Part shown: in pieces, positions 31,100 to 53,700 of the stretch | How positions within the stretch are numbered: the first letter of the stretch is position 1 | Layout of the letters: every line of letters begins with the position of its first letter | NCBI RefSeq assembly: GCF_003144245.1 | Contig: NW_020289991.1 | Coordinates: forward strand, 310,001 to 374,000 | Source of the DNA: Jaminaea rosea | Lineage: Eukaryota; Basidiomycota; Exobasidiomycetes; Microstromatales | Direction: 5' to 3' | Length of the DNA stretch: 64,000 nt | The notes under the pieces: generated by a model | The model's input: only the letters and a program-made list of their open reading frames with translations | The model's database searches: none | What the model was told of the DNA's origin: nothing | Program-made: the position numbers and the translations under genes

Positions 31100-31139
<40 letters not shown>

Positions 31140-31229
31140 TTTACCGATGCACAAGACGACCTTGCAACGATCGCAACGACTGCGACCAGCACCACCACGA
31201 CGACTGCGACCGCACAGCCGCAAGCATAG
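29865..31229 (+). CDS. Sec14-like CRAL-TRIO lipid-transfer protein
   Basis: Cytosolic phospholipid-binding or exchange protein of the Sec14 family. 454 residues from ATG 29865. After a Ser/Thr-rich N-terminus, the CRAL-TRIO N-domain contains WTVRRYYKASANKEPEAKRR and AHSLAWRRKMKPD. The lipid-binding domain (about 185-345) has RPLLHLMPGKENT, IALVIDFHQAS, DHYPERLGRAFVMRPPLWMG, FIDSATRAKIKWN and LLRDYGGRYNFTF. These correspond to the conserved yPerl, nPpxWm, flxpxTxxKI and LP.eYGG blocks. The C-terminus is acidic, with an uninterrupted run of 13 Asp encoded by a pure GAC repeat, then a Thr-rich end. Which yeast Sfh/Csr protein is the closest is not clear. Confidence 0.88.
31101..31139 (+). repeat. 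Trinucleotide repeat (GAC)13 inside the Sec14-like gene
   Basis: Thirteen uninterrupted GAC codons (poly-Asp) near the C-terminus. A pure codon run of this kind is prone to length change between strains. Confidence 0.95.
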
Positions 31230-31574: not shown

Positions 31575-32140
31575 TCACTTATGATCAATGGGAGGTACCT
31601 CTACCTCTTCAGCACCAGGCTCTGCATCCTGTACGACGGGCCAGCCGGCATTCTCGCCGTGATCCGTCACCATGCCTCCGAAGACCTTCCGTTCTCCTTC
31701 GACGGGGCTGGGCTTCGCGTGGTGATGAAGGCCTGAGAGCTTGCCGCCGCCGTGGTGTTTGCGCCCACCGCTGATGACGCCCTTGCTCAGGCATTTGGCC
31801 GAGTCGCCGAAGATGTTGTCATTCGTAGTCTCTGCCGTGATTGCATCAGTAGACTCCAGGTTTCTGCCACCGCACCAGCACGTGTCGTCAGCTTTGTTGT
31901 CCAAGGGGCAGGAGGCGGTGTCCGATTGGAAGCTGCGTGTCGGACGGGAGGACGACGTGTGAAAAAGAGTGTGAGGAATGAAAGGGGGCGTAGAGACACT
32001 CACCAGGCGGCTGTCAGGGTGACCCGGCAGCATGCTGCGGAGCCAGCGGCGACTGGGCGGACGAGGAGCAACATCAGGGCGGGCACGAGTAAAATGGCGG
32101 TAGTGAGAAGGTGGAAGCTGCACATCCGAGTGGATGGCAT
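31575..32140 (-). CDS. Small secreted cysteine-rich protein, tandem family copy 1
   Basis: Not a family I can name. Exons are 32140-32004 and 31932-31575, with a 71-bp intron 31933-32003 (GTGAGT...GCAG), giving 164 residues. The signal peptide is long and hydrophobic (LLTTAILLVPALMLLLVRPV) and probably ends at VAAGS. The cysteine module follows: ACCRVTLTAAC, seven residues, CP, eight residues, then CWC. Its spacing, CC-x7-C-x7-CP-x8-C[CW], is shared exactly with the two genes upstream on the same strand. The intron splits the third Cys codon (TG|C), as in the other two. Unlike them, this copy has an extra C-terminal region of about 90 residues rich in His and Gly (GGRKHHGGGKLSGLHHHAKP) and an acidic end. 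A surface or effector role is inference only. Confidence 0.75.
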
Positions 32141-33176
32141 CTTGTTTTACGCGTGCGGCTTCGTGCGTGGCGAGCAGACAACGGGATGACGAGGCGGGCA
32201 AGTTGTAGCGCAGATTGGCGAGCAACTGTCTGGGGCTGAGAGGGTCGAGAACCGAGGAGCTTTTGTCGATGACGATGGGGTAGCTCGTTCACCGCTAGGC
32301 TGAGCACTCTCTTGGTGAGAGCAGGGTCAGGGCATATGCATGGCGTAGTCAGTACCGTAGAGGTCAGCCGGCACAGTGTCCCTGGGCATCGCTAATACAG
32401 TCATTTGAGTGTTCGTGTTACAAGCATCATCGAGCTGCTTGATTGTGATCGAATGATGATCCTCGAGGGGTCGGCTCATCACTCCTTAGGGCGTGTCGTT
32501 GCCCCTTTCTCACGCTCGTCAAAGGCTCCGCACACGCGGATACCGAGCAACAACCCGACGGAGCCTGTTGCAAGGTCGCAACATTTGAAAGGGGGCAGTG
32601 GCCGACATGCTCAAGTTCATCCATGCGCCGATCACCCGCTGCAGGTGAGCGCACGTAACTGAGGTTGGGCCGCCGAGGGCGCGGCTAGTCGGTATCGGCG
32701 AGCGCGACGCCGATAGGCTGGCGCGCGCGCTCGTTCTTGTTTATCTGGTGGCAGCGCGATGTGAGGCCAGAGTCAAGTACATCTGACGGCCGCCGAAGGT
32801 CATTCAAGGGGAAAATGTAGGATCATCGATGCGGGCGGAGGGCTGCGGCGGCCGGGCTTTCGCGAAGTGGCGGTGGTGGTGGCGGCGGCGGCGCGATGTG
32901 GGCAGCGGCCCGCTCACGGTATCGCACTGTAGCGGCGGCACGAAGCAGACGAAGGAATGCACGTGTTGAGAGCGATTGACAGGCATGCGCACGAGATTGC
33001 CATCATGCCTGATTGGCATTGGTGCCCGAATCGTATATTGTTTCGCGTAGCACAACCTCGCCATGTTTTCGTGTGTTTCGCCATGGCTACTCTATGTCTA
33101 TTTCGTCACAAGCCTCGCCGTGCCTTCCCCTTCTGTTCCTCGCTGCCGGCAGTGCTGCTTGGGCTCGCCCACCACG
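32141..33176. other. Intergenic region between secreted-protein copies 1 and 2
   Basis: About 1.04 kb. It should hold the copy 1 promoter and the copy 2 3' end. It includes a GC-alternating stretch near 32720-32740 and GGT/GGC runs near 32875-32895. No further copy with signal peptide and cysteine spacing was found on either strand. Confidence 0.4.
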
Positions 33177-33461
33177 CTACATCTTGGCAGGCTGCTTGAT
33201 AGCTAGCGAGCAGCAGGCCGTGTCTTCCAAGGCGCTTCCAGGGCAGTCTTTGCCAACGCTGTTCTGACTAGCGGCAACAATGAAGCGCGAATGGCTGATC
33301 AGCGCATGGGAGGGCCACGGTCCTCGCGTCAATGCTCACCAAAAGCCAGCGACCTTGTCCTTGCAGCAAGCCGCCACCATGGGCCTGGCGACCAAGAGGC
33401 AGGTAGTCATCAGCATGATGACGGCGAAGAGGGTGTGAGTGAACATGGTCGTGAGCATCAT
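33177..33461 (-). CDS. Small secreted cysteine-rich protein, tandem family copy 2
   Basis: Exons are 33461-33340 and 33267-33177, with a 72-bp intron 33268-33339 (GTGAGC...CTAG), giving 70 residues. This is the most compact member. The signal peptide (TLFAVIMLMTTCLLVA) ends around RPMVAA. The mature part is ACCKDKVAGFC, seven residues to DCP, eight residues to CC, then a short basic end (SLAIKQPAKM). That leaves six cysteines in about 40 residues, enough for three disulfides. The six-cysteine spacing matches the neighbouring copies but not hydrophobins, which have eight. The intron again divides the third Cys codon in phase 2. ATG-ATG at the start leaves a one-residue ambiguity. Confidence 0.78.
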
Positions 33462-34156
33462 GTTGGACGTTGCAGTGCAAGACGGTGGGCTCGGTGTGAT
33501 GAGTACAAGAACGAGAGTGCGCTGCTCGCCTCACGCGGTATTTGAAGCGCAATAGCTTGGCTGACCCAGTAGTCGAAGCAAGCAGCTTTGCTCAGCATGA
33601 CCGATACAGGCTACAGGATTGTCTCGGCATTCTTGTTGCTGCGGTCAGCCGGTGCATCGTGCCCGCTGGACTTCCGACATCGTGGCTTCTGTTGAACCGC
33701 TCAATGCGCCGATGTCGCCAGGAGTGTTGTCGCCTACAGATTATGATGCTTGAGAGCGAAGGGGAGCGATTGTCGTACACAAATGTTGTCGGCATGATGA
33801 CGGTGCGATGTGGGAAGAAGGCCAGTTGGACCGAGAGCAGAGGGTCAGGATGTTGACATTGGTCTCGGATGAGTCGCACGATGTGCGATACGTGGATGGC
33901 AAGACTCGAGCACAGCAGGGCAACCTTCTTGCCCGCACGGTCGTTCTCGTCAACCTAATGCGACCAGTGACGGCAACAGAGCTCGGTGTACGGAAAGCTC
34001 GTTTAGAGCTGTTGGCTCCTGCGGATGGCGAGGGGCCGCACTCAACACGAAGCGATGCGCAACAATGCTCGCCAGTGGGAGAGAGAGGCCGATGGCATTT
34101 TCACACGTCCTTTACAACAATGGCAGACCTGGTGAGTAGTTCGGACGTCGCCGACT
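33462..34156. other. Intergenic region between secreted-protein copies 2 and 3
   Basis: About 695 bp, presumably the copy 2 promoter plus the copy 3 3' end. Short open frames exist on both strands without a signal peptide. Nothing else seen. Confidence 0.4.
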
Positions 34157-34489
34157 TCATTTGCCCTCGACATCGATCGCCTGCCTCTCATCCTCAACCT
34201 CAGGGTCCCTGATCTTGGCCTGAAAGAGCGTCTCACTGGCCGGCGGGCAGCAGTGCGAGTCAGCGGACCAGCCGTAGGGGCAGTCCGTGCCGTTGAACTT
34301 GGTGCTAGTAGTGACGGACAAGAGGGTCAGCCTCACCGAATCGCCAGCTACTTGACGGGCATTCTACACTCACCAAGCAGCCGTCATGTCGTTCCTGCAG
34401 CAGACTTTGCCCAACGCCTCGCCAAAGAGCAGGGGCGCTGCGAGCACGAAGGCAGCGATAACACAGCAGGTCAGCGTATTCTTGCGCAT
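34157..34489 (-). CDS. Small secreted cysteine-rich protein, tandem family copy 3
   Basis: Exons are 34489-34374 and 34304-34157, with a 69-bp intron 34305-34373 (GTGAGT...CTAG), giving 87 residues. The signal peptide is LTCCVIAAFVLAAPLLFG, probably cleaved after GEALG. The mature part is VCCRNDMTAAC, seven residues to DCP, then YGWSADSHCC, and a charged tail (AKIRDPEVEDERQAIDVEGK). The spacing CC-x7-C-x7-CP-x8-CC is identical to copies 1 and 2, and the intron splits the third Cys codon in the same phase. The frame continues upstream of 34489, but the signal peptide fixes the start there. Strand and order show tandem duplication. No known domain recognised. Confidence 0.78.
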
Positions 34490-36549: not shown

Positions 36550-37619
36550 CTACTCGCCCGCCATACCCTCCTCGAGCTCCCTAGCAAAGTCGGCGAGGTC
36601 GTCACCGTCTTCTCCTTCTTCGTCATCGTCGTCCTCATCTTCATCGCTGTCGTCTTCTTCTTCTTCATCGTCGTCATCGTAGGCGAGACTAGTGCTGGGA
36701 GCGAGAGTGGATGGTTGCCAGGTGCTGCGTGGCGCCACGCTGTTTGAGCGCGGCGTGCCAGCGGTAGCCGTGACGACGGGCGTAGAAGGTGCGGCTGGCG
36801 CGGGTGGCGTGGCTGGCGCAGCGCGTGAGGCGATTGTAGGCGAGGTAGTCTTGCTGGTCGTGGCGGCAGCGTCGGTGGCTTGCGTCTCCTCCTCGTTCAG
36901 CGAGAGGCGGGCGGAAAGGCGTCGTGATGAGCGGGTTGCGGGTGCTTTAAGTGCATTACTCGATACGGTAGAAGAGGCGGGCGACGATGTAGCCGCAGGG
37001 GCGGGCGCTGCCTTGTCGTCGTCCTGAGCTTGGTTGATGACGGGTGGCTGAGATGCTTGGGCATCGACGTCATGCTTGATCCTCTTGCTGGGCTGATCGG
37101 TGCGCTGAGCTAGGACCCGCTTTGCCCGCTCGCTGAGCGTCGTTTTGGACCGGTCGAACTTCCAGGACACGCTGGCGGCTACTGCTTCGAGGCGGTAGAC
37201 GTGGGCGTCGGCATCCCAGACGAGGAGCAGGTGATGGTCGACGCCGCTCGCGTGGTGCTCAGAGACTTGGCTCGAGGTGAAGACATGGGCGTTTGACGAG
37301 GCCGAGCGGGGTGGATATTCCAGAAGCAGGTCGCCAGACGATGAGGACGAGGTGAGGGCGCCTAGGTGTGGGGACGAGCTAGCTTGCTGGAGCGACGAGG
37401 GTAGCAGAGAGTCTGTGACGGCGGGAGTGCAGACGTTGATTAGCTTGCCGATCGTTCCCTTACAAATCCTGCGGTCGCGCACTCGCACTCGTACTCACAC
37501 TTAAAGGCGTAGAAGGCGTCGCTCTCGCTGCTTCCCTGATCGCTGCCTGCTCTGCGCTGTGCGAGCCTGCGCACGCTGTCCGAGACGACGACTGGAGCAC
37601 GTTGCGAGGCAGCTGACAT
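36550..37619 (-). CDS. EAF1: ELL-associated factor (Eaf) family transcription elongation protein
   Basis: Nuclear partner of the elongation factor ELL, helping RNA polymerase II. Exons are 37619-37499 and 37412-36550, with an 86-bp intron 37413-37498 that contains a good branch site (GCTAATC, 26 bases before the acceptor), giving 327 residues. The splice produces SDAFYAFKYSLLPSSLQ, the conserved start of the EAF N-terminal domain. GDLLLEYPP and HHLLLVWDADAHVYRLEAVA then SVSWKFDRSKT follow, as in EAF proteins (LIINHDTGEFVLEKL). The C-terminal half is Ala/Ser/Thr/Pro-rich and ends in a strongly acidic stretch (Asp/Glu runs). It is divergent from the Uds1-like gene. The assignment rests on the N-terminal domain only. 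Confidence 0.8.
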
Positions 37620-50717: not shown

Positions 50718-53700
50718 TCACATGTAGAACCTGGTGACGTGAAAGGGTTTCGAGTCCTGTCAGTGGCTCAGCTTTATCGCTCACGGCTCCCCTCGCTGTC
50801 CTACTCACAGGCTCTCGCAGAACTTGGCGTCGCGTCCGAACGACTTCATGAGCATCGTCGAATCCGTGTCGGAGATCTCGGTGAAGACTTCCTGCGACTC
50901 GCCGGATGAGATCTGGGTGGCAGTCTCGGACTGGTCTCCGTACATGATGAGACGTGCCTTCTCTGCCAGAATGTGCGAGTAGTAGACAGGTGGGGGAAGA
51001 GACACGGAGCGCGTGGCGCGGCAGTACTCGTAGCAGAAGGAGGCGATGCTCTTCTGGAGCTGGTCACTCGTGTGCTTCGAGTCGTCCTGGAGCACGACGA
51101 AGTGGCAGGGACGAGCGGTACCAATGAGTCCTGCGTGACCTTGAAGGAAGAAGTCAAAGCCGTAGGGGTGGCAGACGCCGGAGTCGACTACGAGGCCGGG
51201 GGCCAAGTTGCCGCTGCGGTCTTGGTCACCGGGGTTGTTGGCAAAGAAGCGAATGTGGTGGCGCTTGACGCTGATGATGTACGTGAGAGGGATCGTCTTG
51301 CCGGGCTGGACTGCTGCCACGGCTTGAGAGATTGCGTGAGCCTCCACTTGACGGGCCATGGCCTGCGGCGCGAGCGGGTAGTGGTAACGAGGTCAGCAGC
51401 CGCAAACTTTGGTAGCGAGCTCTATGATGAAAGTTACCATCTGGCCATCGCTGACCCCGTCTCGAAAGACGACGATCTTTGTAGGCAAGTTGCCCCCATT
51501 ACGTTCCTTCCAACGGTTAAGGTGCGAGATGCACATGTCCTGCGCGGGTGGGGGCACGTGGTAGTGAGCAGAGGTGGTGGTGATCAGCAAAGCATGCACG
51601 TCGCGCTTCTCACCTTCATGTGCAGAATGGCCTCCTGGCTGCGGCCGCCACGAAGGTGCGTCTGGGCACGGACTTCGGAGTGGAAGCGGGAACGATCGCC
51701 GGCGATGGTAGCAACGAGGGCGGCGATGGATGCACGGCTAGAGCCAGGAGCGGCGTGGGAAACGTCGGCGCCCAAGATCATCGTCGTGGGGGTGAAAGCA
51801 GGCACGTCGTTGGGCGTGACAGAGTGGTTGGCGCCACCGAGCTTGACATTGACCTTCATGGCTACGTTGGCGCAGTACTGGTCCTGTCCGCGCTCGTTGA
51901 GGGCCTTGCGGGCCATGAGGCACTGATTGGGGACGGGCGAGGGCAGATCGGTGAAGCAGACGCGCTTGATGGCTCCGTACAGGTCGGCGTCACCGTCTAC
52001 GAGGCAGATGATGAGCTGGGGTGGAGGGGCCGAAGCACCGCCTGCAGCCTTCTTTGCCTCGCGTCCAACGACTTGAAGCGTCTCCTTGACTCGCTCGGGA
52101 GTGGGAATACCGCGCTCGTAGTAAGGTGCGCGTTCAACGCTGAGGCCCAAGCCCTTGAGGTGGTTGGTGAAGAGACCGGCGAACTGCTGGACGACCTGGT
52201 CAGGGGAGCGAGTGAAGTTGACAATGGCCCACGTTTTGATGGGCGTCGCAGCGGGCGTGAGGAACTTGGTGTTGCGGAGGTTCCATGCGCCACCATTGGG
52301 CTTTGCGGTGCCGCGGCCGTACTGGACGGTAGGGACGGGCAGGATGCGGGCCTCGACTTGGATAGGCTGCGTGCCGACGTTGAGGCCAGCGTTGCGGGGA
52401 TCCGTCTCGTAGGCGATGCGACGGCGCCAGTCGACCACAGTGGAGAGCTTCTCGTCGGGACGCTGACGGCTGACGTCGATCATAGCGGCAGTCATGTCGG
52501 GCTTGAGCTTACGAGGAGGAAGAGCCGTGCCGGGAAGGACCTCGCAGCACTCCATGGGGACCATAGCCTTGTTGCCCAGGACGACGAGGGGCAAGTCGAG
52601 GTACTTGGTCTGGTAGTTGTACTTGTCCTTGAGATAGTCGACTACGCGGATGCGCTGGCCATCCTTCTCGAAAACCTCGTCGCGTGCTGCGCGGGGGGAG
52701 AAGCCCTTGAAGGTCTCTTCGCGGTTAGACTCGCGATGGGTCATCTTGAGCTTGGCTCCATTGAGACGACGACGAAGCTCCTGGAGCTGCATGGGGCGTA
52801 GGGAAGAGAGCTCTTGGCCAGCACCACCACCGCCGCCGCCGCCACCGCCGGGTCCACCACGGCCACCGCGGAATCCGCCACGGTCACCGCCGCGTCCTCC
52901 ACGTCCACCACGGTCTCCACCGCGACCGCCACGGCCGCCACGGCCACCGAAGCCGCCGCCGCCGCTGCCATCCATGCCGAGGATACCAGCGCAGACGTCA
53001 CGGAGGTTGCCGGAGCGAAGGAAGGCTGCGAAAGCTGGGTCGATGTTGACGATCATGCCGGCTTGAGTGGCACGAGCAGATTGGAAGAAGCCTGGGTGCG
53101 GAAGGTGAGAGGAGGAGTGGTGATCAGCTCAAGCCTGTAGCATACTCGCGCTCGCTCTTACCTTTCCAGATGTCAGCTCCAGAGGGGATGGGGACCTTGA
53201 GGTCCTTGTCGAAGAATCGACGACCTCCGCCGCCATGGACCTTGAAAGTCTCTGCTGGCTTGTTGCAGAGGAAGATCTGCAGAGCCTGGATCGCATTGGT
53301 GACGGCCTCAGGGAAGGCGGCTCCAGCAGCACGAATCGTCTGAGGGTCGGCCTCGCAGAACTTGTGGAGGACAGAAAGGTCGATGACATTGACCAGCTTG
53401 AGTGTCGTCTTGAACTTGCGACCCTCGTCACGAGGTAGGTTGGGCAGCGTCATGTCTGCGCCGCGCTCGGGGAGGCAGATGGTCCAAGAGAGTTGATTCT
53501 CAAAGGGCATCTTCTTCTGTGTGTAGCATGAACGACGACCATCGTAGCCAATGGAACCGATTAAGTCGTCGGTCAGAGGATGCGTAGGGTCGGCGGCGCC
53601 ATCTCGAAGGGCCATGCGAAAGACGGATCGAAGAAGCGTAATGGGAAGCCTGCCCCAGCGGTATGGCGGTGAGGTCAGCAAAATCTCTCAAAGCTTTCTG

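Follow-up and report, generated by a model that had tools for sequence, protein, structure and literature searches.

Small secreted cysteine-rich proteins of fungi have been delimited as chains of 300 aa or less with 3% or more Cys, and 133 of the 136 fungi covered by a survey together yielded 8,275 species-specific small secreted proteins (SSSPs), as stated in the accessible portion of that report (PMC4759460). Among the closest described systems, the CFEM motif is given, in the available part of its source, as PxC[A/G]x2Cx8-12Cx1-3[x/T]Dx2-5CxCx9-14Cx3-4Cx15-16C, with eight Cys (PMC4530338), and its Asp is described as the iron ligand in the accessible text of PMC8867779. Hyphosphere proteins (HFS) follow the pattern C-CXXXC-C-C-C-C-C, that is, eight single Cys, according to the available sections of PMC8596622.

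A 64,000-base window from Jaminaea rosea (Ustilaginomycotina) holds three two-exon genes arranged head to tail on the minus strand, at 31575-32140, 33177-33461 and 34157-34489, just where an earlier note on this DNA had placed them. Gene 1 is made of exons 32140-32004 and 31932-31575 (stop included), which encode 164 aa and flank an intron of 71 bases (31933-32003, GTGAGT...GCAG). Gene 2 joins exons 33461-33340 and 33267-33177 across 72 bases (33268-33339, GTGAGC...CTAG) and encodes 70 aa from the first Met, and gene 3 joins exons 34489-34374 and 34304-34157 across 69 bases (34305-34373, GTGAGT...CTAG) and encodes 87 aa. In each gene, this single intron of 69-72 bases follows the TG of the third Cys codon, which it splits after the second base; without splicing, exon 1 reads W and then an immediate stop. 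The models were obtained by splice enumeration, and alternative GT-AG introns also keep a frame open in these genes. We chose the introns given here because the pattern is common to the three genes and because, for genes 1 and 2, it is that of the public models.

Gene 1 corresponds to the J. rosea hypothetical protein BDZ90DRAFT_262845, with 164/164 residues identical to the spliced model. Gene 2 corresponds to BDZ90DRAFT_234599, likewise a J. rosea hypothetical protein, of 65 aa, which starts at a later Met and has the same junction. The splice junctions of these two genes are identical in the public predicted proteins. For gene 3, no public J. rosea protein was found in searches of protein collections, although these would not retrieve a model that differed greatly in length. 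The public protein set of J. rosea includes both neighbours, genes 1 and 2, and may lack gene 3. A 70-aa metagenome protein aligns to gene 3 at 98% identity, covering 55% of the query; its reading runs from the intron straight into exon 2, and from this match to exon 2 it follows that a close strain carries gene 3. In all three genes, synonymous codon choice favoured the proposed frame over the two other forward and three reverse frames, with a small margin in gene 1 (0.076 versus 0.057). This is a modest signal in support of the frames.

The six-Cys module reported for these tandem genes was found in every one of them. The spacing CC-x7-C-x7-CP-x8-C is exact in 3/3 genes, and the module ends in C-C in genes 2 and 3 and in C-W-C in gene 1, where the last Cys is displaced by one. 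The leaders claimed for them are likewise visible in the sequence: a hydrophobic stretch directly precedes the CC in all three proteins, with putative cleavage. An invariant Asp lies three residues before the fifth Cys and six residues past the fourth in 3/3 genes, and gene 1 has a second Asp nearer the fourth Cys. Cleavage of the leader close to CC would give mature proteins of 129, 40 and 59 aa with 7, 6 and 6 Cys for genes 1, 2 and 3, and by full length and mature Cys all three fall within the size and Cys limits for small secreted cysteine-rich proteins. Gene 1 carries a tail of about 100 residues that is Gly/His-rich and then acidic, with a seventh Cys; the tail of gene 2 is very short, which would leave a mature peptide of about 40 residues, and that of gene 3 is acidic. 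The tail of gene 1 (31575-31871, minus strand) contains an HHGGG...HHH run and the lone seventh Cys, neither of which is present in genes 2 and 3.

We compared the non-Cys positions of the modules by BLOSUM62 score against shuffles. The similarity of genes 1 and 3 gave P = 0.0007 (7/23 identical) and that of genes 2 and 3 P = 0.008 (4/23 identical; identities alone, P = 0.07); for genes 1 and 2 it was not significant (P = 0.19, 3/23 identical). The three pairs summed gave P = 0.00015, and P = 0.009 with the shared Pro excluded. With 3/23 to 7/23 non-Cys identities between pairs, the copies have diverged strongly and kept the Cys frame, in keeping with what had been proposed for them. The tails of genes 1 and 3 showed no significant alignment (P = 0.57), and no 8-base word is common to all three 500-base upstream stretches. 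The intron place and phase common to the three genes is a strong mark of homology. Because the copies have the same intron place and phase, strand and Cys frame and lie adjacent to one another, duplication would be by far the simplest account of the trio. So read, the trio illustrates duplication cleanly and on a small scale: three copies at one place, with one intron signature, in which the Cys frame is locked and the loops drift. The position of that intron, within the codon of the third Cys, can serve as a key when other Microstromatales are searched for relatives.

A loose scan, in which gap lengths were varied and the same intron phase and Cys order were required, returned only the three genes from 264,000 bases, gene 2 appearing twice via a second possible acceptor. 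When these 264,000 bases were dinucleotide-shuffled twenty times and searched for the same pattern, in a shorter reading window than the real sequence, 5 loose matches appeared in total (0.25 per shuffle), and 0 matches to the exact spacing plus Pro. The pattern was picked after the genes had been seen, and the shuffles measure its rarity, not a prior prediction. No loose match occurred in 40 kb more of the contig. Overall, the 304 kb scanned, all on this one of the assembly's 21 contigs (454,517 bases long), yielded no fourth copy, nor any instance of the same Cys order without the intron. A search of 264 kb for single-exon relics returned, beyond the trio, 5 second-exon-like and 8 first-exon-like matches. 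We rejected the former, none of which is preceded by AG[CT], and also the latter, only one of which has a correctly placed GT, but without a hydrophobic leader. When each gene was used as a protein query against its own genome, it retrieved itself alone, and a mixed query built from the three modules (E up to 10) retrieved genes 2 and 3, missed gene 1 and found no further locus. The genome search scored only 1 to 4 first-look candidates and, having missed gene 1, could miss diverged copies. The rest of the 16.6 Mb genome may hold further, more diverged copies.

The description of the surroundings as a gene-poor island was overstated; the trio sits in a gap of only 5.3 kb, between the end of a CRAL/TRIO gene at 31229 and the next frame of >300 aa at 36550. 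Near the end of the adjoining CRAL/TRIO protein, a run of 13 Asp codons (GAC) occupies 31101-31139 on the plus strand. Elsewhere in the window, an Argonaute-like gene (50808-53128, minus strand) has linkers, PAZ and Mid, plus a Piwi domain in two halves, in two successive frames. RNA interference parts are missing in some smut fungi, and this gene may be noteworthy given such losses.

Pfam searches returned no family for any of the three, either with full-length proteins (E up to 1) or with leader-plus-module pieces (E up to 10), and the HMMER filters may lose very weak matches in these searches. A profile search of the PDB matched transferrin receptor only, in 11 sequences with E values from 0.41 to 2.3, which we took as chance. 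Searches of about 5.8 billion proteins gave no relatives beyond BDZ90DRAFT_262845, BDZ90DRAFT_234599 and the metagenome near-copy of gene 3 exon 2. This protein search requires 5-residue words in common and similar length, such that diverged smut-related relatives would escape it, and gene 2 was queried in the protein collections only within an alignment. In the literature, open papers gave no description of a CC-C-C-CC family for fungi, the species, the genus or the subphylum, most subscription papers being outside the search. The earlier note had called the family unrecognised. No Pfam family was found for any of the three, and the claim stands insofar as nothing in the libraries searched matches; it falls short in that genes 1 and 2 are already deposited as hypothetical proteins.

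We consider it probable, judging from the sequence, that the trio comprises tandem duplicates encoding secreted, disulfide-locked mini-proteins, most likely extracellular leaf-surface interaction proteins. Here the sequence, frame, introns and strand are observed, and we infer duplication, secretion and disulfides. One ancestral two-exon gene would have given rise to the three tandem duplicates. Removal of the leader near the first CC would leave a six-Cys core some 29 residues long, probably with three disulfides, followed by a tail that is different in each copy, and the Cys would hold the core as most other positions drift. The place of action would be extracellular, at the leaf surface, where the three would serve a phylloplane fungus as interaction proteins, and through their tails the copies may differ in partner or location. 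A site outside the cell is what the leaders, the small size and the Cys content argue for, and the extracellular site is better supported than the target, be it the plant, a rival microbe or the fungus's own wall. The trio, predicted to be secreted, may have an effector or surface role. J. rosea is among the phylloplane fungi that grow as filaments on Tween40, according to the accessible part of PMC7766764, and this habitat fits an effector or surface role, without testing it. Pointing against this overall reading are the displaced Cys of gene 1, its odd seventh Cys, the lack of alignment between its tail and that of gene 3, the non-significant similarity between genes 1 and 2, the weak identities between genes 2 and 3 and the lack of a common upstream 8-base word.

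Several other readings bear on the fold and the role. The CC-C-C-CC arrangement within about 29 residues could be a new disulfide mini-fold, used as the lineage's fixed scaffold, with loops and tail tuned per target on the leaf. We regard this as unlikely. AlphaFold models of genes 1 and 2 (mean pLDDT 44.6 and 56.5, each from a two-row alignment) are too low in confidence to inform on the fold. If the fold is new, the trio adds a very small disulfide scaffold; if not, it is one more lineage-restricted secreted family, of a kind common in fungal genomes. The trio could instead encode antimicrobial or antagonistic peptides directed against leaf competitors, which would suit the assumed mature peptide of gene 2 (very small, with six Cys), the epiphytic habitat (in the accessible part of PMC7766764) and the idea, established in the sources available in part, that fungal effectors target microbiota. 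The charges are not clearly cationic, however: the net values are -2, -1 and -1 over the first 31 mature residues of genes 1, 2 and 3 (slightly acidic) and -7, +1 and -5 over the whole of each assumed mature protein. The antimicrobial reading strikes us as doubtful. A role as surface-active, hydrophobin-like wall proteins seems very unlikely. Neither the hydrophobin (PF01185) nor the CFEM (PF05730) profile had a Pfam match in any of the three; the outer Cys of hydrophobins are absent, and the eight-Cys pattern does not appear in mature proteins with six (genes 2 and 3) or seven (gene 1). Hydrophobin loops are much longer than 7 residues, and the 7-residue loops of the trio are far shorter than these. 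In favour of a hydrophobin-like protein, the order CC-C-C-CC equals the core C-CC-C-C-CC-C minus its outer Cys (available sections of PMC8596622). A genome-wide hydrophobin search was empty; no control matched, so the result is uninformative.

The trio might also be a remnant or compact relative of the CFEM proteins, in which haem or iron would be bound via the conserved Asp before the fifth Cys. In UniRef, the names of both gene products start with 'Extracellular membrane protein C' for gene 1 as for gene 2, which presumably continues as 'CFEM'. Because of this public name, and of the Asp three residues before the fifth Cys in 3/3, the CFEM reading deserves a test. The placement of that Asp resembles the D-x2-5-C-x-C stretch of the motif as given in the available part of PMC4530338, and gene 1 has the C-W-C. 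However, the motif needs eight Cys, two more than the mature products of genes 2 and 3 contain and one more than that of gene 1. The six-Cys module opens with adjacent CC in 3/3, and in genes 2 and 3 the required CxC is replaced by CC. Moreover, the invariant Asp, at six residues past the fourth Cys, is beyond the motif's limit, and the nearer Asp of gene 1 in turn lies at too great a distance from the Cys that follows it. No Pfam match emerged even for leader-plus-module pieces at E up to 10. Searching the genome in six frames for CFEM returned nothing, a result of little weight since the control matched once only, below the cut-off. In light of these departures from the motif, we hold a CFEM origin to be highly improbable.

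We return to the probable secreted, disulfide-locked mini-proteins and their likeness to described systems. The HFS pattern was rejected for the trio, which has a paired CC at its start and a module of six. Like CFEM proteins, the trio is Cys-rich and predicted to be secreted, with an Asp shortly before C-x-C or CC. The likeness to hydrophobins lies in the middle order CC-C-C-CC, and the difference in the missing first and last Cys and the short loops. Cysteine framework III of the conotoxins is the order CC-C-C-CC, and these toxins thus present the same order in a secreted mini-protein from an unrelated organism, an analogy only. Compared with the SSSPs, as described in the accessible portion of PMC4759460, the trio is similarly short, Cys-rich, leader-bearing, domain-less and restricted in the searches made, but differs in being a three-member tandem family with an exact Cys frame and a common intron. 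Orphan small secreted proteins abound in fungi, and the trio is thus ordinary in kind: it is a narrowly distributed, unnamed family of a familiar sort, though a neat one.
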